20,075 bases of DNA from a virus, in IMG/VR virus record IMGVR_UViG_3300030406_000393, positions 1 to 20,075 of that record; one strand, given 5' to 3'. The notes beneath the pieces were generated by a model. That model did no database searches and was not told the origin of the DNA. It saw nothing but the letters and a program-made list of their open reading frames with translations. This document shows positions 5,533-20,075 of this stretch, in pieces. The position numbers and the translations under genes were made by a program. Each line of letters starts with the position of its first letter. Positions within the stretch are counted from its first letter, which is position 1.

Positions 5533-6036
5533 TTAGTTATTTATCATTACTTCTGTGTCTAGTTTTACATCTAGAAAAAGAAACTTAGCGTCTTCATCAC
5601 AATAATTTGCACCACTATGGGTGTGATCCATGACTTCCCAACATTGTGGAACTCCAACATCCCAGTAATATTTTTTATCATCATCCCATACCATGTAACA
5701 TTTTTCTCGTTCTGGTACAACTAGAGGTATCTGTATTCTTTTATATTTGTGTAAGTAAACCTCTGGATCTCGATGTGGTTTAATGTCTGCACCTGACGCA
5801 ATATTTACAAATGCAGAGTACAATATATCTGGATTCTCGTGTATTTTAACTATATGTTCAGGCATATAACTCTTACGAATATTAGTCATTCTTCTCGTCA
5901 TCTTTAACCAATATCCTCTCCAATCATCCCCATCAAAGTCTTTTCCCCTACCTGTAAATTTAGGAGATATTTTTAGTGGAAACTCTACACTAGATCCCCA
6001 CTCAAATAATTGATCTAGATCATCTTTAGTTATCAT
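5533..6036 (-). CDS. Aspartyl/asparaginyl hydroxylase-like 2OG-Fe(II) oxygenase
   Basis: I choose ATG at 6034-6036 (167 aa), which overlaps the TGA of the upstream gene (ATGA). A TTG 12 nt earlier (6046-6048) would add four residues and is less likely. The protein has the metal triad of the Asp/Asn beta-hydroxylase family (pfam05118 type): H88-x-D90 in KPHRDPE and a distal His in DHTHSGANY (H138/H140), followed by KFLFLDV, where Lys may replace the usual Arg that holds 2-oxoglutarate. The segment RIQIPLV between them is the usual core strand. The family hydroxylates Asp, Asn or Arg side chains or small molecules using 2OG and O2. It lies between a cupin and a fibre gene, so a fibre target is an attractive but unproven idea. 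Confidence 0.8.
   Translation of the reverse strand: MITKDDLDQLFEWGSSVEFPLKISPKFTGRGKDFDGDDWRGYWLKMTRRMTNIRKSYMPEHIVKIHENPDILYSAFVNIASGADIKPHRDPEVYLHKYKRIQIPLVVPEREKCYMVWDDDKKYYWDVGVPQCWEVMDHTHSGANYCDEDAKFLFLDVKLDTEVMINN
5538..5545 (-). promoter_or_regulatory. Candidate late promoter (GATAAATA) for 604-aa fibre
   Basis: Minus strand GATAAATA lies within the last codons of the oxygenase gene, 20 nt before the ATG of the 604-aa gene. It matches the NATAAATA late-promoter form. The spacing would give a leader of roughly 12-15 nt. Confidence 0.5.
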
Positions 6037-6596
6037 GGCATATCCCAAGGGGGTGGTTTAACTTCTTTAGTTGCAGCCATTCTCCATGACCTCTCTTTAT
6101 ATTTAACACCATCAACCTCTGCCTGTTTCTCTGATACACCATAACCTTCATAATCCATTCCTACGCAAGATGGTTTGACTCCGTTTAACCATTGTTGTAC
6201 AGATAAAAATATACCACCAGTCGGACCAACTGCTGCACCATGTGGATCTCCATTATCAACTTGAATACAACGATATTTCTTTTTTGTTTTTGCTCTATAA
6301 AAATGAAGTGCAGGGTGTCTAGGATACAACCATTTACCACCATGACTAAACCATAAGTCTCCACTTATACCTACTTCAAAACTATGTACGTTTGGATGAG
6401 TATGTTCTGGAACTATAAAATATTTGTCTGGATAGAATCTAAAAACTTGAACTTGAAACTGATCATCACGATAATGAACGTGTGAATGAAAACCCACAAC
6501 TCCGTAGATGTCTTTATCGAACTTATCTAGCGGAGTGTTAATTGCGTCATCCACTGCTGAGGAATCTAAGTAATTGTGTAAAAAATCTTTTAACAT
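6033..6596 (-). CDS. Cupin-domain protein, 187 aa
   Basis: 187 residues. The centre has a metal-binding cupin motif: VPEHTHPNVHSFEVGISG gives H65, H67, H71 and E74, with a later His in NGDPHGAAV (H119). This agrees with the HxH...E...H pattern of cupins such as dioxygenases and isomerases. The C-terminal 50 residues are polar and basic and end in PPPWDMP. The ATG overlaps the end of the 172-aa gene by 7 nt, and its stop overlaps the start of the Asp/Asn-hydroxylase-like gene (ATGA), so the three are made together. A role as a second non-heme metal enzyme acting on phage fibre or host surface molecules fits the context; no substrate can be named. Confidence 0.75.
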   Translation of the reverse strand: MLKDFLHNYLDSSAVDDAINTPLDKFDKDIYGVVGFHSHVHYRDDQFQVQVFRFYPDKYFIVPEHTHPNVHSFEVGISGDLWFSHGGKWLYPRHPALHFYRAKTKKKYRCIQVDNGDPHGAAVGPTGGIFLSVQQWLNGVKPSCVGMDYEGYGVSEKQAEVDGVKYKERSWRMAATKEVKPPPWDMP

Positions 6597-7108
6597 TGTA
6601 CAAAAAGTCCTAATACTCCTCCGTTTAAGTCTATATCATATGAATTACCAAAGAATACTTCAGAATAGTCATACCTTTTTAATCTCTTATCATTTACTAT
6701 TGGTTTACCATCCAAACATATTATAAATGTTCTACCAGTAAAAGGTTCAACCCTATCATAATAACTTCTCAAATCTAGTTTAGTCTCTGTGCTTGATATT
6801 AGTCTTGCATCCCATTTCTGATATTTATCGTAAGTATTAAATCCAATGATGAAAAAATCTTCTGAAGCGTAAGACATGACATATTCATGCACATATTTTC
6901 TGAGATCAACTAATTCTCTCTCCTTAAATTCTATATTGTCTTCAGTAAACATGATACCTGCTTTACCTTTACCATATACAATATATTGAAATATTGTGTT
7001 CCTATCTTCTGGACTCTCAGCAGTCACATATCCTGCCTTACCTATGTTTACACATATCGCAAACTCATCACATCTACGATAAAATCTTTTGTTCGCATCA
7101 TCAATCAT
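6590..7108 (-). CDS. Hypothetical protein in fibre operon, 172 aa
   Basis: A complete frame, coupled at both ends (4-nt ATGA overlap upstream, 7-nt overlap downstream with the cupin). It is rich in aromatic and charged residues with many short beta-strand-like segments (IFQYIVYGKGKAG, FFIIGFNTYDKY, RTFIICLDGKPIV, GGVLGLFVQC). It could be a further cupin or jelly-roll, but I see no HxH/E set. It has no signal peptide and no membrane helix. I do not recognise it. Confidence 0.75.
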   Translation of the reverse strand: MIDDANKRFYRRCDEFAICVNIGKAGYVTAESPEDRNTIFQYIVYGKGKAGIMFTEDNIEFKERELVDLRKYVHEYVMSYASEDFFIIGFNTYDKYQKWDARLISSTETKLDLRSYYDRVEPFTGRTFIICLDGKPIVNDKRLKRYDYSEVFFGNSYDIDLNGGVLGLFVQC

Positions 7109-7443
7109 AATTCTACCCTATTCATAGCACCACTTGTATCACTAGTAGTGCAAACTATCTTTCCAATATAATCATTTATATCAGTTGATAATATCTCAGG
7201 AACTCCCTTATTAACCTCTAAAGGTTCTTCTTTTAGTAATTGCTTCATTATAATAGGATTTCCTCTGGAACGCATACTATCTTCAAATGCTTTTGGACTA
7301 CTAAAATCTATATTACGATATGAGACATTGTACGATCTATATTCATCAATTGGTTTTTGTGCATTTTCACGACAAAATTTAACGACAATTGATTGATTTA
7401 TTGGGTCGTTTGAAATCACTTTGAATAATATATTAGGAATCAT
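7105..7443 (-). CDS. Hypothetical protein in fibre operon, 112 aa
   Basis: A complete frame of 112 residues. Its ATG shares a base with the stop of the poly-glycine adhesin gene (TAATG) and its TGA overlaps the next ATG (ATGA). It begins MIPNILFKVISNDPINQSIVVKFCRENA, and the middle reads YNVSYRNIDFSSPKAFEDSM; it looks like a small alpha/beta protein. The position straight after an adhesin gene is where T4-type phages often carry fibre chaperones, so a chaperone role is possible, without a recognisable motif. Confidence 0.7.
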   Translation of the reverse strand: MIPNILFKVISNDPINQSIVVKFCRENAQKPIDEYRSYNVSYRNIDFSSPKAFEDSMRSRGNPIIMKQLLKEEPLEVNKGVPEILSTDINDYIGKIVCTTSDTSGAMNRVEL

Positions 7444-8471
7444 TATGTAGGATTAGTTGACGTTATTGTTCTACCTGTGATTGAACCTCCACCCGTTATA
7501 GACGGGGCAGATCCTTGATTAGTTATTATAGCATATCCATTACTTCCACCAATTCCGTGTCCACCTGTTGAATTATCCACTTCACCATCATCACCCTTTG
7601 TCGCTGAATTATTGACAGGACTACTATCACCACCATCACCACCATAATTTCCACCAGCACCACCCTGTGCCTGTCCACTTAATGTACCAGCACCACCATC
7701 ATCACCATTAGTACCACCACCAAAAGCATTATCAGGGCATATTCCAGCAGTTCCAGCAGGGAGTCCAGCTCCACCACCACCTCCACCACCTGGTGCACCA
7801 TTATTAACAGCTGGACTTTTTTTACCACCGCCAGTTGTCTGTGATCTTCCTCCTCCACCACCGCCACCTCCGTAGCCAGATTGGATGACACCTAAGTTAT
7901 TGACTGTGCAAGCGTACTGTATCCCTAAAGCACTCGAACCTGTTCCACCATCTCCACCTTTCCCATTATTTGCTGATCCACCGTTACCACCACCTCCACC
8001 AGCACCATATAATTTACCTGAAGCACCAATCTCGATAACAAGTGCTGTTCCTGAATCCCAAGTTCCAGTTTTTAAAGCACAATGAGTTTGAGTTCCTTGT
8101 GCAGATCCAATTGTTTTATTTACATTAATAATAACTCTATCATCAATTGTGTCTGGTGGTTGTGTTTTACCAGTTCTGCTTGATCCTACAATATGAACGT
8201 TTCCATTATTCCATCTATCTTTAGCATCTTGTCGGACTGTGTTATTTCCTATTGAATGTAAATCAACGATTTGATTTAATCTCTTGCTATAAAAATCACT
8301 AAATTTTATTTGACCAGTAACAGGAACTCCTACATCTAGTGGTACATTGGATAGTGATCCTACATTCTCACCTCCACCCAACCTAAATTCACCTAGTCCA
8401 CCATTGTTTGGTGTTCCAAACTCCGCAATAATTTGACTGTACTTTATAGTACCAGATGCTTGTAAAGCCAT
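7443..8471 (-). CDS. Poly-glycine adhesin-like fibre-tip protein, 342 aa
   Basis: 342 residues. The N-terminal ~65 residues (MALQASGTIKYSQIIAEFG..., TGQIKFSDFYSKR) form a head of a type I associate with cyanophage structural proteins. Residues ~70-155 are mixed beta, and residues ~156-335 are glycine-rich with runs of eight Gly (201-208) and seven Gly (228-234), interrupted by polar segments such as RSQTTGGGKKS. This resembles the gp38 adhesins of T2/S16-type phages, where polyglycine type II helices form the receptor-binding tip, and also other glycine-rich phage receptor-binding domains. I infer a receptor-binding role. The ATG overlaps the stop of the 1794-aa fibre (TAATG), again like gp37-gp38. 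Confidence 0.75.
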   Translation of the reverse strand: MALQASGTIKYSQIIAEFGTPNNGGLGEFRLGGGENVGSLSNVPLDVGVPVTGQIKFSDFYSKRLNQIVDLHSIGNNTVRQDAKDRWNNGNVHIVGSSRTGKTQPPDTIDDRVIINVNKTIGSAQGTQTHCALKTGTWDSGTALVIEIGASGKLYGAGGGGGNGGSANNGKGGDGGTGSSALGIQYACTVNNLGVIQSGYGGGGGGGGRSQTTGGGKKSPAVNNGAPGGGGGGGAGLPAGTAGICPDNAFGGGTNGDDGGAGTLSGQAQGGAGGNYGGDGGDSSPVNNSATKGDDGEVDNSTGGHGIGGSNGYAIITNQGSAPSITGGGSITGRTITSTNPT

Positions 8472-11400
8472 TAACCCTCCAGAGTCTTAACTCGTGCTTC
8501 TAGTTCTTGAATTGCATTTATAAGAATTGGAACCAATTTTTCATATCTGACCGCCATAGTTCCATCATCCCTAGTGGTGGTGATACCAGGCAAACCTAGT
8601 GCATCAACATGTTGTGCAATGATACCAGTGTCTTGTCTGTTTCCATTATATAAAAGATGATACCCGAATTCGGTATTTTGTTTCCAATCAAAAGTATATC
8701 CAGTCATTAATCCAACTTTAGTCAGTGCATTCGGTATAACAACAAGGTTCTCTTTTAAAGTTACATCTGAGGATGAGAAAGCGATTAGATCACCAGTGAA
8801 TGTTCCTGTTCCTCCACAAACTAAATTACCAGAGATATCTACGTTGTCGTTGATATCAATTGTTCCACCTGCCGAGTCTAAAACAAGATTACCTGTGCCT
8901 GTCTTAGTATCAATTGTGTTATCATTAGTGACTCCAATCTGTATGTTACCAAATGTACCACCAGTTGATACAATTGAACTATTACTTACAAGTTCACCAG
9001 AAAGAACTATGTCTGATAAGAATGTCGCTACACCAGCAACACTCAAACCACCACCAACGAACAAATCACTTTGGAATGTACCCACCCCAACAAAAGTTGA
9101 AACACCAGATACGTTTAAGTTACCACCTATGTTAACATTTTTCTCAACTCCCAGTCCACCTTCAAGAACTACACATCCTGTGTCTTTATCATTTGATTGT
9201 GTGGTATCTGTTACCTCTACAGTGTTATTAAACTTAGCAACACCATTTATAGTTGTCTTATCATTAATCTTAACTTCTTTGTCGAAGTTTACAGGACCAT
9301 CAAACTCAGATAGAATTGTCTTAGACTTACCACCCTCAACAAGTATTCTTTCTTTAACGATTACTTCATCAAATACAACACTCAATCTAGCAGGGTCTTG
9401 ACCTGTGATAGTTGGTACTGGTATATCAAATGTCTCTTCCTTACCAGTAGATGAGTTGATTAACTTATTACCGATATAGAAGTCTCCATCATTGTTCATA
9501 CCTGTGTAAACAACGATACCAGCAGCAGTTTCTTGTGCTTGTGATAAGAACTCCTCTTCTCTTGATAATGTCTTGACCTGAACCTGTGGTAAACCAGTTG
9601 AATAGTTACCTGGTCCATATCCAAGATATTCAAATGTGTGACCTGATGCTCTGATATAAGAAGGTCTGTGGAATTGAACTGCTCTTGGTAGAATCTTTTT
9701 GATTAATGCCCCACCAGAGTGATTTTCTTTTAGTGTTCCTAAAGCACCACGAATGACTGTAATCTCGTTGTTACCAGATCCAGAGAGTGTGCTACTTGTA
9801 ACACGCATGATCTCACTATCAATCTGGAAGTATGATCCTAATTCAAATCTTTGAGTGGTTGAGATACCTGCATTTGGTACTGATACATGAATTGTTGTAT
9901 CATTGGTGATGTTAGAATCAAGAGTCATTCTCTCATTACCAAAGAATGAAAGTCCCCTTGCTCCTAAATTCTCACCTGTAATATCTGATGCTCTGTCGTT
10001 AGCAGACATTCCATGCTTCAGTAAGAAAGCACCTGATAATGCTGCATCAGTCTTAGCAACAATAGTTGTAGTTGTGATACCTGTTGCAACGAAGTCACCT
10101 TTGTTGATGTTAGATGAATCGTGGACTCTAAAACTATTACCTGTTACAAATCCATGTGGTGAATTAGTGGTGAATGTTGTTATTCCTGTAACTGTATCAT
10201 AAGTTGATGATGAAACTATAAGTTCATGTCCTACATTTAATAAGTATTCACCTGCTTGTATATCATCAGACGCTGTGATTGCAATCGCAACTTGATTTGC
10301 AGCTGGTACACCAGATATTCTATAATATCCACCAGTTGCAGTTGTAAGACCAGTGATTTGAACTGTGTTACCCAAGACTGTTGATATACCAACTGTGCTT
10401 GTGGTAACTCTCGCACCAGATCCACCAGTGAATGTATTGTCTAAATCAAGTGTTTCACCACCAGCGTATCCAGATCCACCAGCAGTCACATCTACCTGAG
10501 TAACTTGACTGCCCGATACCACTACTGTTGCAGTCGCACCATCCCACGTTGTCGTGCCTGTGTTGAACAACTTGACGTTGTTATAAGTTCCGTTTGTTAA
10601 ACCTGATCCACCAGCAGATATTGAACAAGTAAGGATACCACTTAGATTATGTTGTCTATCAAAAGTAAGAGTTGCTGTACCAGCGTTCTGTGATGAGAAT
10701 GAGGTTGAAACTCCTGTGATTGGTAGTCCAATATGTAAATCTTTCAATATACTATCAGCAGTCTCTCTTGTAAGACTCTTCTTAAGATCATTAGTAACTA
10801 CGCTACCAACAGGTGATCTTCTAGCAAAAGTTTTAGATGCTGCTGGATTATCCTGTATGTTATCTCTATCAAGTTGAGGATATAAGTCATCAACATTCTG
10901 ACTGAATGATTGTGTAGTATATTCTTCTGTGATACTATTATCAGCATTTAGAACATAAAGATGATACACACCATCAGAAATATCCTTTTCATATTCTTGA
11001 ATCGTATCATTTCTGTAGATGTAATAGTTCGCCTGTAGATCATTTCTTTCAAATCTAGGAAGTGAAGTTGTTCTACTACTTGTATCATTTGTGAAGAATC
11101 CAACGCTATGTGTTACACCATCCACATCAGTTGTCGAATATTGGAATGTTTTATCACTATCCACTGATGTGACTAAAAATGTTCCATTATATCCTTGATT
11201 TACAGTTGCAGAAGTGTTGGTTGTACTACTTACATTTTTAATTATTATTTGATCACCAACATCTAAATCGTGTGGTAGTTCAGTAATTGCAGTAACTACA
11301 TTTGATGCTTCAGTGCAAGTACTAATGAATCTGTGATTGCGTTTGTAATCATAATCAGAATTACCAATAGTTGTTAGAGAGAAATCTGCATTTGACCTCG

Positions 11401-13855
11401 CAGCAGTTGATCCTGACTCTTGTAGTATGAATCCTTCTTCTGGATTCTTTGCATTATCAAATTCTTTTGGAACTACGACTCTAAACTTGTATAGTTTCTC
11501 ATCAATACTTCTAGCATCTTCCTTTCTCTTGAAGAATGATACATTTGTTCTTGCACCGAAGGAAGCGACACCACCTGATGTAAATGCGTTATAAATTCCA
11601 CTAGCAGCGTTCGTGTGAACATACCAATTTCCATTGGATGAGTCAAATTGTATTGGTGATCCAACATCACCAGCGTCTTTTTCAGATACTCTACTTAATA
11701 TTTTAAGATTTGTTCCACCATAGACTGTAATCGCTGTTCCATTTTCAGCATTAGATAATGATGATGCTAATTTGATTGCTGTAGAGGAAGTTTTTATAAC
11801 AAAATATGTTTGATGAGCATTAATATTTTCTGGTAAATCACCGTCATCACTAATTAACTTAACTTTTTCACCCGTTAGTAATCCATGAGTAGATAAGAAA
11901 TTAAATTGTGAATTTAATGTTATGTTAGCAACTTCTAATTCTTTAGTAGAGCTAGTAGTTCCATACACTGCTCCGCTTGCAGGATCAGTGTCCACCATCA
12001 AGATATCAGCAGAATAATTAGTTCCTGAGTTAATTATGTTTAACTTGTCATTTAACTTAGCACCAACTCTATAACCTTGAATTATGACTGGAGGTTTAAT
12101 ATCTTTATCATTAAATCCAAAGAGATATAAATGACTTGAAATACCTACAGATGTTGTAAGTCCAACATCTAATGAAATCCAATCAACATCTTCCTCTGTA
12201 GATGTAATCGCTTTAGGTGTAATTATATTTGTGATAAATGCTTTATCATCTTTTGAAAATGCTTCTTTCTTAAATCCCTCTGATGCTAGTGAGATTTGTC
12301 CAAAGTTAGAGTTAGAGTTTGTAACACTATAGTCAGCACCAGCGATACATTCAAAGTGTCTTGCATATCCAATCGCAAATACTGATACTATCTGTAAGAA
12401 GGAGTCATTACTTGCTTTAATATGAACAGTTTCCCAACCATTTCTATATCTTGCATTTGAATCTAGATGATATACCTGTGATGTATTAGTTGCAGATGAT
12501 CCACTTGCAAGTTCTGCACCTGTTACTTTAGTGATACCAATACCTTCATAAATTCTAGATGACTTATTGTAACTAACAAAAGCACGATCATCTTTCTGCA
12601 ATGATATACCAGTAAATTGAGCAACAACCATAGATCTAAATCCAGTTGCTTTCTTACCATCAGCATGCATACCATTCATACCAAATACTGATCTCAATGA
12701 TATGTTGAAGATATACGGGGATGCACCTGTGACTGTATCAGTCTCAATTGTGACTGTACCTGCTGCTGCACTTGGTGATGCTGGTAAATTAGTTCTTACA
12801 AATGGTAGTAGATATGTAAACTGTGTCGTGCTAGTTACATTCTGAACCTTTGTTGATACATTATAATCATCTACACCAACACCTTTAATCTTGATGGGTG
12901 TACCAGCATTGAGTCCGTGTGGATTTGTAGTGGTGACTGTGATAATTGAACCAGGCGTAAAACCATCACCAGAAATAATGTTAGATATATTAATAGGATC
13001 AGCAGCAAAAGCACCAACAATTTCAAATTCAGGTCTTTGTGGAGAGAATCCAGTATCACTAGCTGGATATCTATCTGTAGATTCAATTATTCTATCAGTA
13101 GAATTGAAAGCATTAGACAACTTAGCATAATACATCGCTAAGTCAGTAATTGTATACCCTGTTGGAATTGTGATACCATCTGCATACTCAAAACAAGTTA
13201 ACTTATGGTGGGAGAATGTTGGTTTTGATTGATTATTTGTTGAAAAGTCTGATGAGTCTGTGTATACAAGCCCACTCTCACTACCATCAAATATAGAGAA
13301 CTGCCAGAAATAACATGTACCTGTTACTCTGAATATCGCTGAGTTGCCTACATTAACATCTGTTGGATTTGGAACATACTTAGGTCTTATCTTTGTCTTC
13401 CTTAAATCTAAACCAACCAGTGATGTTCCCCTTGGTATAATTACACCACCGTTGATACTATTAAATTTGTGAAGAATATTATTTGCCTGTGTTAGATCAA
13501 ATACTGAACTGGAAGTTAGAGAAAATTCAGTTGTCGCATTTGTTTCAGCACCACTCTGTGATACTGCTTTTGCAGAAGTTCCATCTGCTTTTATTGCATA
13601 ACCAGGTCTGTTATCAATTATATGCTCGCCAGGATATAGTAATATTGTTGTCTTTTCTACTGTGTCGTTGTTGTTTCCTTTTAAGTAGGAGAATCTAGCA
13701 GCCTCAATGAGTGCTCTTTGAACAGTTTTAAAGGGTGTAGTAAGTGAATTACCCTGATTTTCTATCGCATCAGTTGAATCAAGGTCACTTGGGTTAACAT
13801 AAAGAATACGCCCTTCAGTATTCTTTATAAAGTTCTCTAACTTATTAAGGGGCAT
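8471..13855 (-). CDS. Giant tail fibre with C-terminal S74 chaperone, 1794 aa
   Basis: The largest gene of the window. Its N-terminus (ILYVNPSDLDSTD..., TTPFKTVQRALIEAARFSY) is a pectin-lyase-like start seen in long cyanophage fibres. The body is beta-rich and holds several related small domains containing NPHGLNAG, LPHDLDVG or SPHGFVTG followed by an IxIxxV strand. Late in the body come shaft segments (GVSTFVGVGTFQ, GVATFLSDI). The last ~100 residues (from about 1694) match the peptidase S74 / intramolecular chaperone domain: SSDVTLKENL with the Ser-Asp cleavage site and nearby Lys, GYTFDWK, TGIIAQHVDALG, then a helical end (LINAIQELEARVKTLEG). In this family the chaperone drives trimer folding and then cuts itself off before the Ser. 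The ATG at 13853-13855 has only a weak ribosome site. Confidence 0.9.
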   Translation of the reverse strand: MPLNKLENFIKNTEGRILYVNPSDLDSTDAIENQGNSLTTPFKTVQRALIEAARFSYLKGNNNDTVEKTTILLYPGEHIIDNRPGYAIKADGTSAKAVSQSGAETNATTEFSLTSSSVFDLTQANNILHKFNSINGGVIIPRGTSLVGLDLRKTKIRPKYVPNPTDVNVGNSAIFRVTGTCYFWQFSIFDGSESGLVYTDSSDFSTNNQSKPTFSHHKLTCFEYADGITIPTGYTITDLAMYYAKLSNAFNSTDRIIESTDRYPASDTGFSPQRPEFEIVGAFAADPINISNIISGDGFTPGSIITVTTTNPHGLNAGTPIKIKGVGVDDYNVSTKVQNVTSTTQFTYLLPFVRTNLPASPSAAAGTVTIETDTVTGASPYIFNISLRSVFGMNGMHADGKKATGFRSMVVAQFTGISLQKDDRAFVSYNKSSRIYEGIGITKVTGAELASGSSATNTSQVYHLDSNARYRNGWETVHIKASNDSFLQIVSVFAIGYARHFECIAGADYSVTNSNSNFGQISLASEGFKKEAFSKDDKAFITNIITPKAITSTEEDVDWISLDVGLTTSVGISSHLYLFGFNDKDIKPPVIIQGYRVGAKLNDKLNIINSGTNYSADILMVDTDPASGAVYGTTSSTKELEVANITLNSQFNFLSTHGLLTGEKVKLISDDGDLPENINAHQTYFVIKTSSTAIKLASSLSNAENGTAITVYGGTNLKILSRVSEKDAGDVGSPIQFDSSNGNWYVHTNAASGIYNAFTSGGVASFGARTNVSFFKRKEDARSIDEKLYKFRVVVPKEFDNAKNPEEGFILQESGSTAARSNADFSLTTIGNSDYDYKRNHRFISTCTEASNVVTAITELPHDLDVGDQIIIKNVSSTTNTSATVNQGYNGTFLVTSVDSDKTFQYSTTDVDGVTHSVGFFTNDTSSRTTSLPRFERNDLQANYYIYRNDTIQEYEKDISDGVYHLYVLNADNSITEEYTTQSFSQNVDDLYPQLDRDNIQDNPAASKTFARRSPVGSVVTNDLKKSLTRETADSILKDLHIGLPITGVSTSFSSQNAGTATLTFDRQHNLSGILTCSISAGGSGLTNGTYNNVKLFNTGTTTWDGATATVVVSGSQVTQVDVTAGGSGYAGGETLDLDNTFTGGSGARVTTSTVGISTVLGNTVQITGLTTATGGYYRISGVPAANQVAIAITASDDIQAGEYLLNVGHELIVSSSTYDTVTGITTFTTNSPHGFVTGNSFRVHDSSNINKGDFVATGITTTTIVAKTDAALSGAFLLKHGMSANDRASDITGENLGARGLSFFGNERMTLDSNITNDTTIHVSVPNAGISTTQRFELGSYFQIDSEIMRVTSSTLSGSGNNEITVIRGALGTLKENHSGGALIKKILPRAVQFHRPSYIRASGHTFEYLGYGPGNYSTGLPQVQVKTLSREEEFLSQAQETAAGIVVYTGMNNDGDFYIGNKLINSSTGKEETFDIPVPTITGQDPARLSVVFDEVIVKERILVEGGKSKTILSEFDGPVNFDKEVKINDKTTINGVAKFNNTVEVTDTTQSNDKDTGCVVLEGGLGVEKNVNIGGNLNVSGVSTFVGVGTFQSDLFVGGGLSVAGVATFLSDIVLSGELVSNSSIVSTGGTFGNIQIGVTNDNTIDTKTGTGNLVLDSAGGTIDINDNVDISGNLVCGGTGTFTGDLIAFSSSDVTLKENLVVIPNALTKVGLMTGYTFDWKQNTEFGYHLLYNGNRQDTGIIAQHVDALGLPGITTTRDDGTMAVRYEKLVPILINAIQELEARVKTLEG

Positions 13856-13907
13856 TGTCTTATGATTGCCAATATATTATTCTATGATCTATTTAGTTAG
13901 TCAGGAA

Positions 13908-14108
13908 TCAGTCTTCTGTAGTTGAGATATCAGCATACTCAACAATTCTAGGATCTGCTGAATTGTTAATTAACTGTAGAACATCCATAAACTGTTGCGT
14001 TGTATCACACTTAACTTTTCTCTTCTGTCCATCATCACTGTATAGCATAAATGTTTTTTTACAAACATCTATAGTAATATTCTCTAAAAATTCGTCTGAA
14101 TAACTCAT
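13908..14108 (-). CDS. Hypothetical small protein, 66 aa
   Basis: The frame stays open into the oxygenase gene, but the ATG at 14106-14108 (MSYSDEFLENITIDVCKK...) avoids the overlap and gives a 66-residue acidic protein with two Cys (C16, C34). The pattern (strand ITIDVCKKTFMLYSDDGQKRKVKCD, helix TTQQFMDVLQLIN) looks like a small single-domain fold. There is no clear Shine-Dalgarno; the leader is very AT-rich. The longer start at 14213 would overlap the oxygenase by 74 nt and is less likely. Function unknown. Confidence 0.6.
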   Translation of the reverse strand: MSYSDEFLENITIDVCKKTFMLYSDDGQKRKVKCDTTQQFMDVLQLINNSADPRIVEYADISTTED

Positions 14109-14139
14109 AGAATTATTATAGTTAAATTTATTTAGAAAG

Positions 14140-14751
14140 TCAAACGTTGAGGTCATTAACATAATACCAAGTAACCGCCACTCTTTTCTTTCCACTTGTG
14201 ACCTGTGTACCACAGTGTGGGAAACACCAATTAGATGGAAATATTAAAGCATGTCCAACTGGTGGTTTATATTCTTGACGAGCAAACTTTGTCGTACCAC
14301 CCTCAAAATCATCACTTAAGTATAAGATGATAGATATTTTTCTATGATATTCCTTTGAATCAGGCACAGGTGAGGCATCAGTATGCCATGTATATTTTTG
14401 ATTCTCAACATATTCTAACACTTGTATAAACTCTCTTTCTGATGTAGTCATGTATCCACCAGGAACTGGATATCCATCAAATGTTGGATGAATCTTCATC
14501 AATCTCTCACGATACTCAAGCAAAGCATTATTCATGCCTTCGTGAATAACCTTTGCTACCTCTTCCTCATTTTTTAAATATGCGACAGTGCTTGATCTAA
14601 TCTCTGGATCGACTCTAGCACTAAGATGACCAGTTCCATCATCAGCAAAACCTATCATACATACTTGAAATTCTTTTTTATCTAATTCAGCGTTAACAAA
14701 TTTCACTTGCTCAGGTGTAAGAACCTCAATAATTTGAATCAAATCGTTCAT
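14140..14751 (-). CDS. Prolyl-4-hydroxylase-type 2OG-Fe(II) oxygenase, 203 aa
   Basis: 203 residues of the P4H-alpha / 2OG-FeII_Oxy_3 type. The iron triad is H123-x-D125 in YTWHTDAS and H179 in FPHCGTQ; the 2-oxoglutarate-binding basic residue follows in VTSGKKRVAVTWY (K188 or R190). The segment ISIILYLSDDFEGGTTKF (139-156) is the usual core of the double-stranded beta-helix. The family hydroxylates proline or other residues in proteins using 2OG and O2 in the cytoplasm. In this window it lies directly downstream of three collagen-like fibre genes, which would be natural substrates, although proline there is only in the X position. It follows the tail-chaperone gene by 10 nt. Confidence 0.85.
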   Translation of the reverse strand: MNDLIQIIEVLTPEQVKFVNAELDKKEFQVCMIGFADDGTGHLSARVDPEIRSSTVAYLKNEEEVAKVIHEGMNNALLEYRERLMKIHPTFDGYPVPGGYMTTSEREFIQVLEYVENQKYTWHTDASPVPDSKEYHRKISIILYLSDDFEGGTTKFARQEYKPPVGHALIFPSNWCFPHCGTQVTSGKKRVAVTWYYVNDLNV

Positions 14752-14761
14752 AGTTTACATA

Positions 14762-15214
14762 CTAAGATGGTTTAGTTGGCCAGTTTGGATTTGCAGGATC
14801 ACTTGTATTTGCAGGTAAATCTCTCAATGCTTTTCTGTAGGTAATCCACTCTGCTTTTTTTGAATCACTTAATCCAATATCACCCAATTGAGTGAAATCT
14901 GAAGATAGTAAAAGATTATCTCTCTCACTTCTCAACTTCATCCACAAAAAAGTGCTGCTGTTAAGGTATTCATCATCTAAATCTTTTCTACGTTGAATTT
15001 CATTATTAAACGTAGTCTCTGCTTGAGAGTATATCCCAATGGATGTAATCTCTAAGTTTGCCTTTCCATCATTATATTCAATCTCACCCGAAGAACCATC
15101 CCAATGAACTGCATGGACATCAGAAGGTATCCAAGACATGTCAGTTCCAATCCCACTTATAATAGTAGTTCCTATGCCTATAATTCTATCTGATGGTATT
15201 ATTACTAAGTTCAT
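14762..15214 (-). CDS. Tail-assembly-chaperone-like protein, 150 aa
   Basis: 150 residues. The C-terminal half (about 95-150: RSERDNLLLSSDFTQLGD, EWITYRKALRDLP, then PNWPTKP) matches the phage tail assembly chaperone pattern (pfam16778 type: RxxRxxLLxxSDxTQ...WxxYRxALRDLP...WPxxP). In other phages such proteins follow tail-fibre genes and help fibres fold or join. The N-terminal half (residues 1-70) is beta-rich with Trp (MSWIPSDVHAVHWDG) and is also seen at the front of these proteins. The ATG overlaps the TGA of the 98-aa gene (ATGA). It probably serves one of the collagen-like fibres just upstream. Confidence 0.8.
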   Translation of the reverse strand: MNLVIIPSDRIIGIGTTIISGIGTDMSWIPSDVHAVHWDGSSGEIEYNDGKANLEITSIGIYSQAETTFNNEIQRRKDLDDEYLNSSTFLWMKLRSERDNLLLSSDFTQLGDIGLSDSKKAEWITYRKALRDLPANTSDPANPNWPTKPS

Positions 15215-15507
15215 AGTTTATCTCCCTCCAATCTATCTAGTGGTTCTTCTATTGTTTTCATATTTATTGTAGTGGATATTCTATTTAATGTTTCATTTCT
15301 AAATGATTCCACAGCAGCACCTGTTTGTCTTTGTTGTTGAGAATTTTCTATCATTAACATAGGCATCCACGTTACAGCACATCCCCATTCATCAACTGGT
15401 TCACCAGTTTGAGGATGATAACCTCTAATTTGAGTAAACCATGAACATTGTAAACCAATGCAGTCTTTACCAATTAAAGGACAAAATTTTCCTTGCTCAA
15501 GTTTCAT
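15211..15507 (-). CDS. Small Cys-containing conserved phage protein, 98 aa
   Basis: 98 residues with four Cys in the first half (C9, C16, C21, C43: FCPLIGKDCIGLQCSW ... WGCAVTW), which could bind zinc or an iron-sulfur cluster. A polar helical second half carries QQQRQTGAAVESFRNE. Similar proteins are familiar from T4-like cyanophage genomes as conserved hypotheticals. The ATG follows the stop of the collagen-like fibre gene by one base (TAA-T-ATG). Function not known; its conserved company with fibre genes suggests a part in fibre assembly or attachment. Confidence 0.75.
   Translation of the reverse strand: MKLEQGKFCPLIGKDCIGLQCSWFTQIRGYHPQTGEPVDEWGCAVTWMPMLMIENSQQQRQTGAAVESFRNETLNRISTTINMKTIEEPLDRLEGDKL
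15261..15268 (-). promoter_or_regulatory. Weak candidate late promoter (AATAAATA) inside 98-aa gene
   Basis: Minus strand AATAAATA, about 46 nt before the ATG of the tail-chaperone-like gene. It matches the late consensus but is coding sequence (codons for Thr-Ile-Asn-Met), so the match may be chance. Confidence 0.25.
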
Positions 15508-15508
15508 A

Positions 15509-16927
15509 TTAATTCTTCTGAGCTATTATAACATCTGTATAAGCAACATCCAAGTTAAAGTTAGGATTTGTAAATGTATGACTGTGTGCAGAGTTACTTC
15601 CAGTATTTTCTGAAGTTGGTGTGTATGAATCACTACTTCCGTGAACTTGACGATACCCCACATATCTATTCCAGTTACCACCTGCTTGTCCAGAATTACT
15701 AGTGCTACCACGAGATCCATCAATCGCTATTTCATTTCTAGTCCAAAGGTTATGATAGTGAGTAGCAAGTTGAGCTGTTGTTAAAGTATGATTATTGACT
15801 GAACCACCACCTGTGGTTACTGTGCTGGTTAATACACTTGTAAAAGAATTACTACCACCAGACCCCACAGATCCAGTTACAATTCTCAATGCTCTATTGT
15901 TTACACCTGATGTTACTTTTGTCCAACCAGTTGGTGCTGATGTTTGTTGAAATAACATTCTTGTTCCAGAGGTAAATACAGTTCCAGTAGTTCCTGTATT
16001 ACCTTGGTTGCCCTGAGCACCTGTTGCTCCTTGAGCACCTGTTGCCCCTTGAGCACCTGTTGTTGCATTACCAGCAGCACCTTGAGCACCTGCTGAACCA
16101 CCAGATCCTTGTGCTCCCGTTGCACCTTGTGCACCAGCAGCACCCTGAGCACCAGTAGGTCCTGTTCCACCACCTGTACCACTTTGTCCTTGATGACCTT
16201 GTGCACCCTGAGCACCCGTTGAACCTCCACCACCAGTATTACCCTGATGTCCTTGAGCACCTTGAGCACCCGTGGGTCCTGTTGCACCTTGAGCACCTGT
16301 AGCACCGACATTACCATTTGCTCCTTGATGACCTTGAGCACCCTGTGCACCAACAGCTCCTTGAGCACCTACAGCACCTTGAGCACCAGTTGCACCAGTT
16401 GCACCTTGAACACCTTGGGCACCCTGAGCACCTGCGGCTCCTTGAGCACCTACAGCACCCTGAGCACCTGTTGCTCCTGTAGCACCTTGAGCACCTTGAG
16501 CACCAGCAGCTCCTTGAGCACCAGCGGCTCCTTGTGCACCTTGACCTGCATTAGTTCCAGATTGTCCCTGATGACCTTGATGACCTTGAGCACCCTGATT
16601 CCCTTGAGCACCAGTTGCACCTGTAGTTCCTTGAGAACCTTGAGCACCAGTAGGTCCTGTAGATCCTGTATTACCTTGATGACCCTGTGCACCTTGAGCA
16701 CCTTGAGCAGCAGTAGCACCTTGAACACCTTGATGACCTTGAGCACCTTGTGCTCCAGTCGCTCCTCCTGAACCAGTCGCACCTTGATGACCTTGTGCAC
16801 CTTGAGCACCCTGTGCTCCTACTGCGGAAGATCTTCTCCAACTTGTACCATCCCATGTCCATGTGATTCCATTCGCAGTGTAATTATCACCGTTATTTGG
16901 ACTATTTGGGAAATCGAATGCTGCCAT
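15509..16927 (-). CDS. Collagen-like tail fibre with His-rich tip, 472 aa
   Basis: Residues 1-36 are a small head ([27 protein letters not shown]). Residues 37-315 are Gly-X-Y collagen-like repeats, mostly GAQ, GAT, GAA and GHQ, with eight GHQ triplets and breaks such as TNAGQ and NATT. Residues 316-472 form a receptor-tip-like domain beginning [15 protein letters not shown], with HxH motifs (THYHN, AHSHTF) and ending [12 protein letters not shown], which resembles C-terminal domains of phage tail fibres. Collagen-like shafts form triple helices in phage fibres, so a trimer is expected. The ATG is 10 nt after the stop of the next collagen-like gene, without a Shine-Dalgarno. Confidence 0.85.
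15983..16819 (-). repeat. Collagen-like coding repeat tract (472-aa fibre)
   Basis: About 93 Gly-X-Y triplets. The DNA is a 9-bp-periodic tract rich in the plus-strand unit ccttgagca / ccttgtgca. Its low complexity makes copy-number change by slippage or recombination likely. Confidence 0.85.
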
Positions 16928-16928
16928 G

Positions 16929-16979
16929 ATTTATATATTAAGTTTTCATGATATAACAAAGAGCATAATATGGTGGTCT
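16929..16979 (-). repeat. 51-bp direct repeat, copy 1
   Basis: Identical over 51 bp to 18580-18630. It covers the last 13 codons of the 546-aa fibre ([13 protein letters not shown]), its stop, and the 9-nt TATATAAAT just before the next ATG. Confidence 0.9.
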
Positions 16980-18578
16980 ATTTTCATGAGAGGATCCACT
17001 TCCAGCTGATCCAGTGTTACCAGTAACATCATGAGTGTGTGTAGCATTAATACTAACACCTGCAACAGGACTAGGAGAGGAACTTCCTGTTATAGGACTG
17101 AATTGACTTGGTATTTTTGTGAATATACCACTTGTACTACCATAGACATTGAAACACTCTGATATTCTGTTTATATCACCTGTTAAAGAGGTGTTTGGAT
17201 TACCTGTTGCTAATGTACCATCTCCGTGAGTGTGAGAAGGTAGTTGTGCAGTTGAAAGTGTAACAGAATTACTACCACCCTGAGCACCGACTGAGTAACT
17301 ACTACCACCACCAACAACAAATCTATCTCTCAAATCTGGTGTACCATTGCTTCCATTACATAATACCCAACCACTTGGAATATTATTTGATGCACCAGAC
17401 CATATTAGTATAACACCAGATGGAATTCCTGTTGATCCAGCAGTTCCTGTATTACCTTGATGACCTTGTGCACCCTGTGCTCCAGTGGGACCTGCAGCTC
17501 CTTGAGCACCTGTTGTTGCATTACCAGCAGCACCTTGAGCACCAGCCGAACCAGCACCACCTTGTGCTCCCGTTGCACCTTGAGCACCTGTAGGACCACC
17601 TGCTCCAGATGCACCCTGTGCTCCTTGTCCACCACCTGAACCAGTTTGTCCTTGATGACCTTGAGCACCCTGAGCACCAGTAGGACCAGTGGCACCTTGA
17701 GCACCAGCAGGACCAGTTGCACCTTGAGCACCTGCAGCACCTTGTGCTCCTTGAGCACCTGTTGGTCCTGTTGCACCTTGAGCACCAGCAGCACCTTGAG
17801 CACCAGCAGCACCCTGAGCACCTTGACCAGCGTTAGTTCCTGATTGTCCTTGATGACCTTGAGCTCCTTGAGCACCAGCGTTACCTTGAGCACCTGTTGC
17901 CCCAGTAGTACCTTGAGCACCTTGAGCACCAGTGGATCCAACACCACCTGAAATGCCTTGATGACCTTGTGCTCCTTGAGCACCTGCAGTTCCTTGTGCA
18001 CCAGTGGCTCCCTGAGCTCCAGTAACACCAACGTTACCTTGTGCACCTTGTGCTCCTGTAGCACCTTGTGCTCCTGTAGAACCCTGAGCACCTCTAACTC
18101 CAGTGTTTATTGATACCCACTGACTACTATTACCATCATTATAATAAACCAACAATACCGCATCATCAGTATCCCACCATAAGTCTCCTTCATTAGGACT
18201 AGACGGTGCACCTGTTGAAGTTGTTATACTTCCTACACCAATATTTCCTTGAGTTCCCTGTGCACCTTGTGCACCAGCATTACCTTGTGAACCTTGACTT
18301 CCTTGAGCACCTGCGGCTCCTTGAGCACCTGCAGTTCCTTGAGCACCAGCAGGACCTGTTCCACCAGCAGCACCTTGAGCACCAGCAGGACCTGCAGCAC
18401 CTTGTGCTCCTGCACCAGCAGGACCTTGAGGTCCAGTCTGTCCAGTATTACCCTGTGCTCCTACGACTGCTGTTCTACTTACTTTTCTCCAAGATGATCC
18501 ATTCCAAACCCAAACATTACCAAATGCAGAGAATTGTTGATTTACACTAGGATTGGAAGGAAAATCTATACCAGTCAT
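16938..18578 (-). CDS. Collagen-like tail fibre with collar-type tip, 546 aa
   Basis: Residues 1-39 are a small Trp-containing head ([27 protein letters not shown]). Residues 40-114 are a first collagen-like tract, 115-162 a globular insert ([24 protein letters not shown]) that looks like a second copy of the head fold, and 163-384 a second collagen-like tract. Residues 385-546 are a phage tail-collar domain: [11 protein letters not shown]...[21 protein letters not shown], as in T4 gp12-like proteins. There are HxH motifs (SHTHGD, THTHDV) and the end is [13 protein letters not shown], identical to the upstream fibre. The spacer before its ATG is TATATAAATT, with no Shine-Dalgarno. It is likely a trimeric side or short tail fibre that binds a receptor. 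Confidence 0.85.
17427..18092 (-). repeat. Collagen-like coding repeat tract 2 (546-aa fibre)
   Basis: About 74 triplets. It shares with the 472-aa fibre the same interruptions ([10 protein letters not shown] and [12 protein letters not shown]), so the two tracts are of common origin or have exchanged sequence. Confidence 0.85.
18237..18461 (-). repeat. Collagen-like coding repeat tract 1 (546-aa fibre)
   Basis: About 25 triplets between the head and the globular insert. It is richer in Pro (GPQ, GPA) than the second tract and has no GHQ triplet. Confidence 0.8.
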
Positions 18579-18579
18579 A

Positions 18580-18630
18580 ATTTATATATTAAGTTTTCAT
18601 GATATAACAAAGAGCATAATATGGTGGTCT
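18580..18630 (-). repeat. 51-bp direct repeat, copy 2
   Basis: Identical to 16929-16979. With copy 1 it brackets the entire 546-aa fibre gene as a cassette. Confidence 0.9.
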
Positions 18631-20075
18631 TGTATTTACAGTATCAGAACCAGAAATGTTTACTGTATCAGATCCAGAACCACTAAATGTATGGGAATGT
18701 TTGTTACTACCACCAGGCATTCCAAGACCATAACGATTATCACTTTGAGGTGCTGAAGTGGTTCCACTGATCGAAATATTAACTGTATCGGATCCAGAAA
18801 TAGTAACTGTATCAGTTTTTGCACCACCAGTATCACCTACATCATAATCGCCATCAGTATTACTATAACCAACAATAAATCTACCTCTAAGGTCTGGGGT
18901 TGAGTTTGACCCATTACATAATACCCAACCAGATGGAATGGCATTTGCTGCACCAGACCATATGATAATCCCACCTGAAGGAACCGCATAAACAATTGAT
19001 CCAGATGCACCTTGAGCACCAGTAGGACCTGTAGATCCACCACTACCCGTTGCACCTTGAGCACCTGTTGGTCCTGTTCCACCACCTGATCCAGTAGCAC
19101 CCTGAGCACCTGCAGCACCTTGAGCACCTGTCCCACCACCTGATCCTGTAGCACCTTGAGCACCTGCAGCACCTTGAGCACCTGTAGATCCTCCTGAACC
19201 ACCAGCACCCTGATGACCTTGAGCACCTTGAGCACCTGTTGCTCCTGTAGCACCTTGTGCACCTGTAGATCCTGTTGCACCCTGAGCACCCGATGCAGCA
19301 GCAATCCAATTCAACTCTGTTCCTGTTGATGATAAAACCTGTCCAGATGTTCCTAGTTGACCATCCTTATCTTGTAATCCACCAGTAATCTTCACACCAT
19401 CTGTTGTTGTTTCAAATCTCTTAGTATGACTATGAAATATTGTTGTCGCAGCACCAACATTAGCAGTCAAATATGATCTATCACTGGTTCCACTTCTCAA
19501 CTCTAACATATCAGCAACCACTTCCAACTGAGAATCTGAACGATTTGCTATTTGTGAAGCGGGTGGTGATACAGTAGTGTTATGTTTAATTGTTAAGTCA
19601 GAAGGAACACCACTACCATTATCTCCAAATCCTAACCTTGCATTATCTTTAAATTCTAATTCATCATCAGATTGATTCCATACTGCATTATAACTATCAC
19701 CTGTAAATTTTACAGTAGCACCTGTAAATGTTGTTATACCAGTTACTTTTAAGTTCCTTGTTGTTATATCATCACTTGATGAATAAGATGAACCTGTAGC
19801 ACCTTGATGACCTTGTGCTCCTTGAGCACCAGTCGGACCTACATCAGATATTGATATAGTGCCTTTCATAGCACTGTGATACTGACAGATATAATATAAC
19901 GTTGAAGGTGCGTTATATGGAACAGCAAATGTTAATGTTCCTGATTGTGTTCCATTTCCAGTCACACCACTTGTGTATTGATTTCCTGTGCCTGTGGTCT
20001 GTGCTGTTTTAATATAGAAAGGATGACCTGAAGCGTTAATATTGAATGTATATGTAAACCCTCTCAATAAATTAA
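18589..20075 (-). CDS. Collagen-like fibre with cupredoxin-like head (start outside window)
   Basis: The frame is open to the right edge, so the true N-terminus is outside; numbering here starts at the Leu (TTG) codon 20065-20067. Residues 1-74 look like a cupredoxin: GHPFYI (H15), then YYICQYHSAMKGTI with C61, H64 and M67, the order of a type 1 copper site. A short collagen-like stretch (77-91) is followed by a beta-rich shaft (95-259), a second collagen-like tract (260-356) and a tail-collar tip (357-492: [20 protein letters not shown]...PDLRGRF). The tip carries HSHTF and four SGSDTVNIS-like repeats and ends [13 protein letters not shown]. It is probably a trimeric fibre. The copper site is inferred from motif order and is not shown to be filled. 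Confidence 0.85.
   Translation of the reverse strand, partial: NLLRGFTYTFNINASGHPFYIKTAQTTGTGNQYTSGVTGNGTQSGTLTFAVPYNAPSTLYYICQYHSAMKGTISISDVGPTGAQGAQGHQGATGSSYSSSDDITTRNLKVTGITTFTGATVKFTGDSYNAVWNQSDDELEFKDNARLGFGDNGSGVPSDLTIKHNTTVSPPASQIANRSDSQLEVVADMLELRSGTSDRSYLTANVGAATTIFHSHTKRFETTTDGVKITGGLQDKDGQLGTSGQVLSSTGTELNWIAAASGAQGATGSTGAQGATGATGAQGAQGHQGAGGSGGSTGAQGAAGAQGATGSGGGTGAQGAAGAQGATGSGGGTGPTGAQGATGSGGSTGPTGAQGASGSIVYAVPSGGIIIWSGAANAIPSGWVLCNGSNSTPDLRGRFIVGYSNTDGDYDVGDTGGAKTDTVTISGSDTVNISISGTTSAPQSDNRYGLGMPGGSNKHSHTFSGSGSDTVNISGSDTVNTRPPYYALCYIMKT
18635..18820 (-). repeat. Short SDTVN-coding repeats in fibre tip
   Basis: Four copies of a roughly 21-bp unit encoding SGSDTVN(I/T), two on each side of the HSHTF segment of the collar tip. 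They are diverged at the third codon position, which suggests old duplications kept for the protein sequence. Confidence 0.7.
19000..19290 (-). repeat. Collagen-like coding repeat tract (cupredoxin-headed fibre)
   Basis: About 32 triplets with several GSG/GGG breaks and a repeated block [19 protein letters not shown] present twice in tandem, a sign of recent unit duplication. Confidence 0.8.

Follow-up and report, generated by a model that had tools for sequence, protein, structure and literature searches.

What are oxygenase genes doing among the tail fibres of a phage? The question is raised by the IMG/VR virus record IMGVR_UViG_3300030406_000393, whose entire 20,075 bases make up the window analysed here and whose source phage is marine and of the cyanophage type. 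Three collagen-like fibre genes are followed by a tail-fibre assembly chaperone, a prolyl 4-hydroxylase (P4H)-type 2-oxoglutarate (2OG)-Fe(II) oxygenase, a giant S74 fibre, a polyglycine-rich adhesin (polyG), a protein with an HxH motif and an Asp/Asn beta-hydroxylase-like oxygenase (AspH). A sequence-only reading had placed all of these in one operon, and every gene that it named is indeed present, on the minus strand, in a tight unit. 2OG oxygenases are recurrent and unexplained genes of cyanophages, and the literature (available for the papers cited below as partial texts) has treated them as metabolic or signalling functions. We find that their co-location with fibres is real and non-random and, for the clade to which the window P4H belongs (clade I), largely specific, and we consider it reasonably likely that these genes form a tail-fibre operon with its own oxygenases for modifying the fibres.

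Clade-I P4H and collagen-like fibres

Loci were collected from IMG/VR through the P4H (the best 80 of 132) and through the N-terminus of the giant fibre (three queries, two of them derived from P4H-bearing phages; the best 80 of about 590-600 each). With near-identical loci deduplicated and those short of flanking DNA excluded, the counts cover 101 distinct giant-fibre loci whose upstream DNA spans 5 kb or more, 44 with a clade-I P4H and 57 without. Giant-fibre scans contributed 69 of them, 12 carrying P4H; another 27 derive from P4H scans and five from phage records. Collagen-like Gly-X-Y repeats were called at a minimum of 8 triplets in runs of at least 4, a threshold set after viewing loci L032 and L082 and relaxed from runs of 10 triplets because these two hold interrupted Gly-Pro-Pro repeats. 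Gly-X-Y repeats lie upstream in 44 of 44 P4H-positive loci but in 19 of the 57 others (Fisher 7e-14). At least five Y-position prolines are found in 32/44 versus 6/57, and Gly-Pro-Pro in 32/44 versus 1/57 (Fisher 2.8e-15) or, among collagen-bearing loci, 32/44 versus 1/19 (6e-7). Loci from giant-fibre scans alone give 12/12 versus 19/57 for Gly-X-Y and 9/12 versus 1/57 for Gly-Pro-Pro. Under the strict 10-triplet threshold, an earlier set of 80 loci had collagen in 24 of 34 P4H-positive versus 13 of 46 negative loci; L038 and L049, whose P4H lies more than 9 kb from the giant fibre, were scored negative in the earlier counts, this one included, and positive among the 101. On a giant-fibre tree, a model of dependent evolution beats the independent one (likelihood ratios of 34.9 and 37.3, 4 degrees of freedom), in a test that used a one-gene tree with rates at their bounds and that can give false positives when changes are few. 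The oxA clade of oxygenases shows no overall link in the same loci with Gly-X-Y (13/17 versus 50/84, p 0.27) or Gly-Pro-Pro (p 0.57). Clade-I P4H is tied to collagen-like fibres, above all to Gly-Pro-Pro, and the proposal that oxygenases might prove just as common where such fibres are missing, put to a survey for this clade, was not borne out. At L105:13059 a clade-I P4H lies downstream, not upstream, of the giant fibre and tail protein, and at L082:7391-9990 an open reading frame (ORF) that appears by eye to be carbamoyltransferase-like stands directly upstream of another, after an ORF matching PF13759.

By its score (62.1 bits against a curated cut-off of 27) the window P4H is assigned to the PF13640 family of 2OG-Fe(II) enzymes, and the closest solved structures are the prolyl 4-hydroxylases 3itq and 5hv0 (about 1e-13 over the catalytic domain). 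The metal triad H123/D125/H179 ascribed to it was confirmed. All 93 clade-I proteins compared, of which the window's is one and 70 are distinct, the rest being copies, carry these residues and also K189, presumably the basic 2OG-binding residue. Ratios of non-synonymous to synonymous substitution (dN/dS) of 0.16-0.23 against four relatives indicate purifying selection. In a tree of oxygenases clade I comprises 47 rows with a Shimodaira-Hasegawa-like approximate likelihood ratio test (SH-aLRT) support of 99 and includes none of the rows from elsewhere in genomes, which number just 9 in this tree, its row labels ignoring strand. A fibre-locus marker was found in 79 of the 80 loci of the P4H scan.

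Compared with a sister contig (L018/L090), the genes that flank the P4H share 91-98% identity; the value falls to 72.5% for the P4H itself and to 57% for the second collagen fibre. Synonymous divergence (dS) to the sister reaches 1.06 for the P4H versus about 0.2 for the chaperone, the adjoining 98-residue protein p98, and p112 and p172 of the polyG cassette, which suggests that alleles have been exchanged; the P4H looks to have moved as one unit, in a locus with fibre turnover too. The DNA methyltransferase at 1273-2394 of the window, 74% identical to that of the sister contig amid neighbours of 97-99%, is another swapped gene.

Oxygenases behind the polyglycine adhesin

The second group of proteins sits with a different fibre: AspH and the HxH protein go with the polyG adhesin and p112/p172. 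In loci picked by the giant fibre alone, the gene next to polyG is an oxygenase in 16 of 25 cases versus 6 of 78 control genes, pooled from those after the giant fibre, tail protein and helicase (Fisher 3.6e-8), and the gene after p172 is an oxygenase in 6 of 8, five of them AspH. Over all loci an oxygenase lies within 2.5 kb of 34 of 41 adhesins, leaving seven without one. ORFs of 140-270 residues behind the adhesin match PF13640 at E <= 0.01 in 46 of 51 cases, the 51 being 56 less near-copies in L108 and L164 (two each) and the non-oxygenase L022:4186, with the clade-I enzyme L022:2831 included. In the oxygenase tree, a single clade (SH-aLRT 100) unites 23 of the 26 rows labelled post-polyG, and the other three fall outside it. 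In many relatives one to three differing oxygenases follow polyG, and after them there frequently come p112, p172 and AspH, with the HxH protein present in some; the window has p112, p172, the HxH protein and AspH as a chain of overlapping genes, of which p112-p172-AspH is kept in relatives, and lacks the first oxygenase. A gene for a PurN-like formyltransferase (Formyl_trans_N, best 1.8e-51) separates adhesin from oxygenase at L153:7794-8318 and L162:9695-10219.

AspH scores as a member of the PF05118 enzyme family (34.7 bits against a cut-off of 22.6), and the intact triad claimed for this Asp/Asn-hydroxylase-like protein holds, H92, D94 and H144 being invariant in 22 of 22; its likely start, judged by eye, is the ATG at 6036 rather than the TTG at 6048. 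Its relatives occur in six phage records, all belonging to P-HM1, P-HM2 or MED4-213. What had been called an HxH cupin kept its motif, with H65 and H67 invariant in 6 of 6 close relatives; as no family or PDB match was found and the fold model, built on only six close sequences, reached a predicted local distance difference test (pLDDT) score of 38, "cupin" stays a reading of the motif. The HxH protein is 92-97% identical in L091, L092 and L093, where the adjoining p112/p172 are only 25-35% identical, a pattern that points to its recent horizontal movement into the same slot.

Another protein of the cassette had been overlooked. Although p172 gave no significant family match and its invariant columns contain no HxH, its model (pLDDT 93) is confidently predicted to be a bicupin, aligning over the whole length with HutD/PA5104, pirin YhhW and BacB (Z 12.0-12.7; for HutD/PA5104 Z 12.7 and a root-mean-square deviation of 3.2-3.4 over 153-157 residues). 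A candidate relation of p112 to the small S-PM2 protein phrog_4883 was looked for and not found. In a tblastn search of the phage collection, whose low-complexity filter may conceal glycine-rich matches, p112, p172 and a polyG relative (L103) matched single-cell marine virus records alone (1, 1 and 2), and the HxH protein had no match. The window adhesin itself was named from its glycine-rich sequence and its match to phrog_11439.

Probable fibre modification and its alternatives

In the counted loci the P4H clade is always near collagen-like fibres and therefore may well modify them; more generally, modification of the fibres by these oxygenases is probable from gene content, residues and genetic association. 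By analogy with collagen P4H and with protein Asp/Asn hydroxylases, the P4H would be made late in infection beside the collagen-like fibres and the chaperone. With O2, 2-oxoglutarate and Fe(II) it would convert prolines of Gly-Pro-Pro or Gly-Pro-Xaa in the collagen-like shafts to hydroxyproline, either ahead of trimerisation or while it proceeds. Hydroxyproline could then provide a stabler triple helix or sites for glycosylation, with possible effects on receptor binding. The AspH-like enzyme would modify the polyG adhesin, the likely tip, perhaps assisted by p172 and the HxH protein. A T4-like late promoter motif has 12 matches in the window versus 10 expected. The earlier claim that the enzymes act on the fibres thus fares unevenly: the P4H-collagen link supports it, and AspH and the HxH protein go with polyG and not with collagen. 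The case for catalysis on fibres is weakest for the window's own P4H and for its HxH protein.

A number of observations weigh against such a role. The window is an exception inside the rule that joins P4H and collagen: its fibres have 15 X-position prolines and one Y-position proline among 230 Gly-X-Y triplets (fibre 2, 100 triplets in runs of at least 5, 9 X-Pro and 1 Y-Pro; fibre 3, 91 triplets, 3 X-Pro and no Y-Pro), the commonest triplets being Gly-Ala-Gln, Gly-Ala-Thr and Gly-His-Gln, compared with 63 Y-prolines in 259 triplets over five fibre ORFs of P-SSM2. Judged by the Y-position Pro-Gly of collagen prolyl 4-hydroxylase, the label "collagen P4H" proper does not fit the window, and the picture of P4H and collagen paired as in animals fails literally here because the repeats hold that single Y-proline. 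Since hydroxylation of both X- and Y-prolines, with Y favoured, has been reported (Schnicker and Dey 2016, as cited in PMC8968730, which also reports P4H action on synthetic peptides), the 16 window prolines may be the sole collagen substrate, or the main substrate may be another fibre. Elsewhere, Gly-Pro-Pro is absent from 12 of the 44 P4H-positive loci, including L018 and L014 of the window lineage; three such loci have at most two collagen prolines (L023 has none in 65 triplets), and the summed X and Y proline fraction is below 0.1 in 10 of 42 deduplicated P4H-positive loci. L058 bears a clade-I P4H beside genes that look baseplate-like by eye, in 10.7 kb without collagen, with 90 bases upstream. 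Six phylogenetically independent pairs are supported; the counts in the same and the opposite direction are 2.1/0.0 for Gly-X-Y, 2.7/0.1 for Gly-Pro-Pro and 2.1/1.1 for Y-proline, and none of the contrasts is significant. Specificity is incomplete as well: in clade-I-negative loci oxA has a weak Gly-X-Y link (7/11 versus 12/46, p 0.03), and the chaperone (27/29) and p98 (20/21) also accompany Gly-X-Y, their link to Gly-Pro-Pro being weak (p 0.06 and 0.04). On the adhesin side, Asn/Asp enrichment in AspH-bearing adhesins is not significant (p 0.1 and 0.07), and in the two neighbourhoods opened, those of P-HM2 and MED4-213, the AspH relatives are not near fibres. P-SSM2 has about 21 2OG oxygenase sites with one in the fibre locus, no genome-wide enrichment of 2OG genes at fibres being seen, and in S-IOM18 oxygenases lie beside head and replication genes; a fibre role would therefore cover only some copies. 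As to novelty, a 2014 table already linked Fe(II) oxygenases to host-recognition islands: 8 of 390 island genes, filed under host recognition, were of this kind (Mizuno 2014, Table 1, PMC3909814).

Such scattered copies would suit auxiliary metabolic or regulatory genes whose position among fibres is incidental, as in the proposals of 2-oxoglutarate/NtcA signalling and DNA repair for cyanophage enzymes (Sullivan 2010, PMC3037559), and so would the 24 copies of S-SCSM1, whose roles, in the available text, were not specifically investigated (PMC9602691). We hold this distinctly unlikely for the genes considered here, given that clade I keeps to the fibre locus in all but one of the scanned loci, that drawdown of 2OG would not predict its presence to track collagen and Gly-Pro-Pro content, and that the other clades stack behind one adhesin. 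The hypervariability of fibre islands suggests another account, in which the islands simply gather cargo and the pairing is a product of common ancestry and joint recombination; the swapped P4H allele, the 2014 island tally and the scarcity of independent pairs are all compatible with it. Hitchhiking would, however, be expected to bring in mixed cargo, yet nine-tenths of the ORFs behind polyG are of one fold class, clade I has a strong Gly-Pro-Pro link that oxA lacks, and the P4H shows purifying selection and invariant catalytic residues, all of which makes this account rather improbable in our view.

Two further alternatives grant the enzymes a defined substrate and change what it is. The fibres may be modified while the clade-I P4H acts on the giant fibre, the chaperone or a host protein instead of collagen proline. 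That the window lineage combines low-proline collagens with a P4H under purifying selection speaks for this, as does the finding that 61 of the 80 loci from the P4H scan contain the giant-fibre N-terminus, with short or cut sequences frequent among the others; but the way in which the loci were chosen guarantees a giant fibre in P4H-negative loci too, where collagen and Gly-Pro-Pro are much rarer, and we regard such a substrate as unlikely. The PF05118 family includes human AspH, LpxO and OlsC, and the window protein might, like the latter two, act on a host lipid or surface glycolipid. LpxO is its best curated match (1.6e-8), at 34 bits against a cut-off of 500; the protein is short, and its gene overlaps or abuts those of the bicupin and HxH protein behind the adhesin in relatives, which leaves a lipid substrate very improbable.

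Fibre modification thus being the reading that we prefer, a broader version may be put forward tentatively for the marine T4-like phages of this group, without our favouring it outright: a modular, oxygen-dependent maturation of fibres in which clade-specific 2OG oxygenases would be swapped together with the fibres that they hydroxylate, P4H serving the shaft, and HxE/HxD stacks, Asp/Asn-hydroxylase and bicupins serving the polyG tip or acting behind gp12. Many "2OG metabolic genes" would then be virion-modifying. If a fixed subset does modify fibres, hydroxylation would join glycosylation in tuning receptor binding and fibre stability, and this tuning would be coupled to the oxygen and 2-oxoglutarate of the infected cell.

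Gene order and known systems

The genes discussed overlap or are separated by at most a few tens of bases (Table 1), and synteny in relatives together with the locus counts places their grouping beyond chance. All three collagen-like ORFs exceed the PF01391 cut-off, the chaperone scores 64 bits against a PF16778 cut-off of 26.6, and the giant fibre has 1794 residues with the S74 domain at 1696-1753. Downstream of AspH follow a tail protein, a helicase and the DNA methyltransferase. A 157-residue protein at 217-690 of the window matches phrog_9052 ("hemagglutinin") and has no Pfam or NCBIfam match.

Table 1. Features of the window in order of transcription
Feature	Coordinates	Strand	Basis and remarks
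Collagen-like / tail-collar fibre 1	18589..20075	-	PF01391 2.3e-7; phrog_1800 tail collar fibre 1e-26; N-terminus beyond window edge
Collagen-like fibre 2	16938..18578	-	PF01391 5.4e-34
Collagen-like fibre 3	15509..16927	-	PF01391 1.7e-34
p98, 98-residue protein adjoining chaperone	15211..15507	-	In P-SSM2 and many relatives; no significant family match
Tail-fibre assembly chaperone	14762..15214	-	PF16778 1.1e-17; phrog_8716/4912/4697
P4H-type 2OG-Fe(II) oxygenase, clade I	14140..14751	-	PF13640 1e-16
Small DUF7294 protein separating P4H from giant fibre	13908..14108	-	PF23966 1e-18; presumed start
Giant tail fibre, C-terminal S74 chaperone domain	8471..13855	-	phrog_529 E 0; PF13884 7e-9
Polyglycine-rich adhesin (polyG)	7443..8471	-	phrog_11439 tail fibre 3e-8
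p112, conserved 112-residue protein, polyG cassette	7105..7443	-	21-sequence alignment; no significant family
p172, 172-residue predicted bicupin-fold protein, polyG cassette	6590..7108	-	Model pLDDT 93; HutD/pirin/BacB fold
HxH protein, 187 residues, putative cupin	6033..6596	-	HxH invariant 6/6
AspH, Asp/Asn beta-hydroxylase-like 2OG oxygenase	5533..6036	-	PF05118 2e-8; presumed ATG start

The cultured phage P-SSM2 matches the window in its fibres, a counterpart of p98, chaperone, P4H, small protein, giant fibre, tail protein and, further on, helicase; its P4H (L002:15001-15594), about 50% identical to that of the window, is annotated as a ferrochelatase (PiuC). S-CAM7 and ACG-2014f keep the P4H, small gene and giant fibre, a glycosyltransferase adjoining the P4H in ACG-2014f and lying one gene off in S-CAM7. 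In the cultured phages S-PM2, Syn1 and Sf-CH3 a gp12/short tail fibre is followed by an oxygenase, a tail assembly chaperone, a second oxygenase, a third gene, two unknowns and then the helicase, with an extra annotated oxygenase by the helicase in S-PM2 and Sf-CH3, not in Syn1; S-CAM1 has the same start as S-PM2, with fibre and unknowns unnamed. The third gene is annotated "DNA endonuclease V" in S-PM2 and Syn1 and as a P4H-domain protein in Sf-CH3. The S-PM2 "endonuclease V" matches PF13640 (1.9e-6) and the last oxygenase PF13759, giving four oxygenases behind the gp12 fibre; the S-PM2 chaperone is phrog_4697, which the window chaperone matches too (3.6e-10). The name of phrog_274, "DNA endonuclease V", to which both this S-PM2 gene (L253:8019-8528) and L254:9231-9743 of S-CAM1 belong, is likely a misannotation of a 2OG oxygenase. 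Oxygenases surround tail-fibre genes in S-SCSM1, and S-RIM2 has one three genes past the tail fibre.

The titles and abstract openings of the top-ranked literature, a scope that leaves subscription journals mostly outside, contained no hydroxylated phage fibre and no pairing of P4H with Gly-Pro-Pro. Mizuno's islands differ from the present loci in that the available text does not say which enzyme clade, fibre or substrate motif is involved or how the enzymes would act (PMC3909814). A Baltic survey records P4H genes in viruses and refers to collagen in tail fibres; in the part available it calls the use of the enzymes cryptic (PMC9301287). PiuC-type cyanophage oxygenases (T4-GC 28; phrog_61, phrog_274) are of the same family as the window P4H, the P-SSM2 PiuC being its positional counterpart; they have been annotated as oxygenase, ferrochelatase or endonuclease, and the accessible passages propose signalling, DNA repair and host metabolism for them, not fibres (PMC3037559, PMC9602691). 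A paper on phage collagens states, in its available text, that bacteria and viruses lack a prolyl hydroxylase for Y-position proline (PMC3368898); if the P4H is active, the Gly-Pro-Pro collagens beside it would contradict this as a general rule.

The bacterial P4Hs 3itq and 5hv0 are the nearest solved relatives and, unlike the window P4H, are cellular and not bound to a fibre locus. Their source is presumably a spore-former, and we take the enzyme of Schnicker and Dey to be a Bacillus P4H. For PF05118, of which copies are also known in pelagimyophages (PMC7029224), the window AspH shares the family score and metal triad, in a short, single-domain form that belongs to the polyG cassette with p112 and p172. 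The closest parallels to the P4H are animal collagen P4H and that of the Paramecium bursaria Chlorella virus (Eriksson 1999, as cited in PMC9301287), where, as here, a P4H-class enzyme with HxD...H...K residues meets Gly-X-Y proteins, Gly-Pro-Pro in most relatives of the window. Unlike animal collagen P4H, the window enzyme, known from its sequence, lies inside a tailed-phage fibre operon with a chaperone and faces Gly-Ala-Gln/Gly-Ala-Thr repeats with almost no Y-proline.

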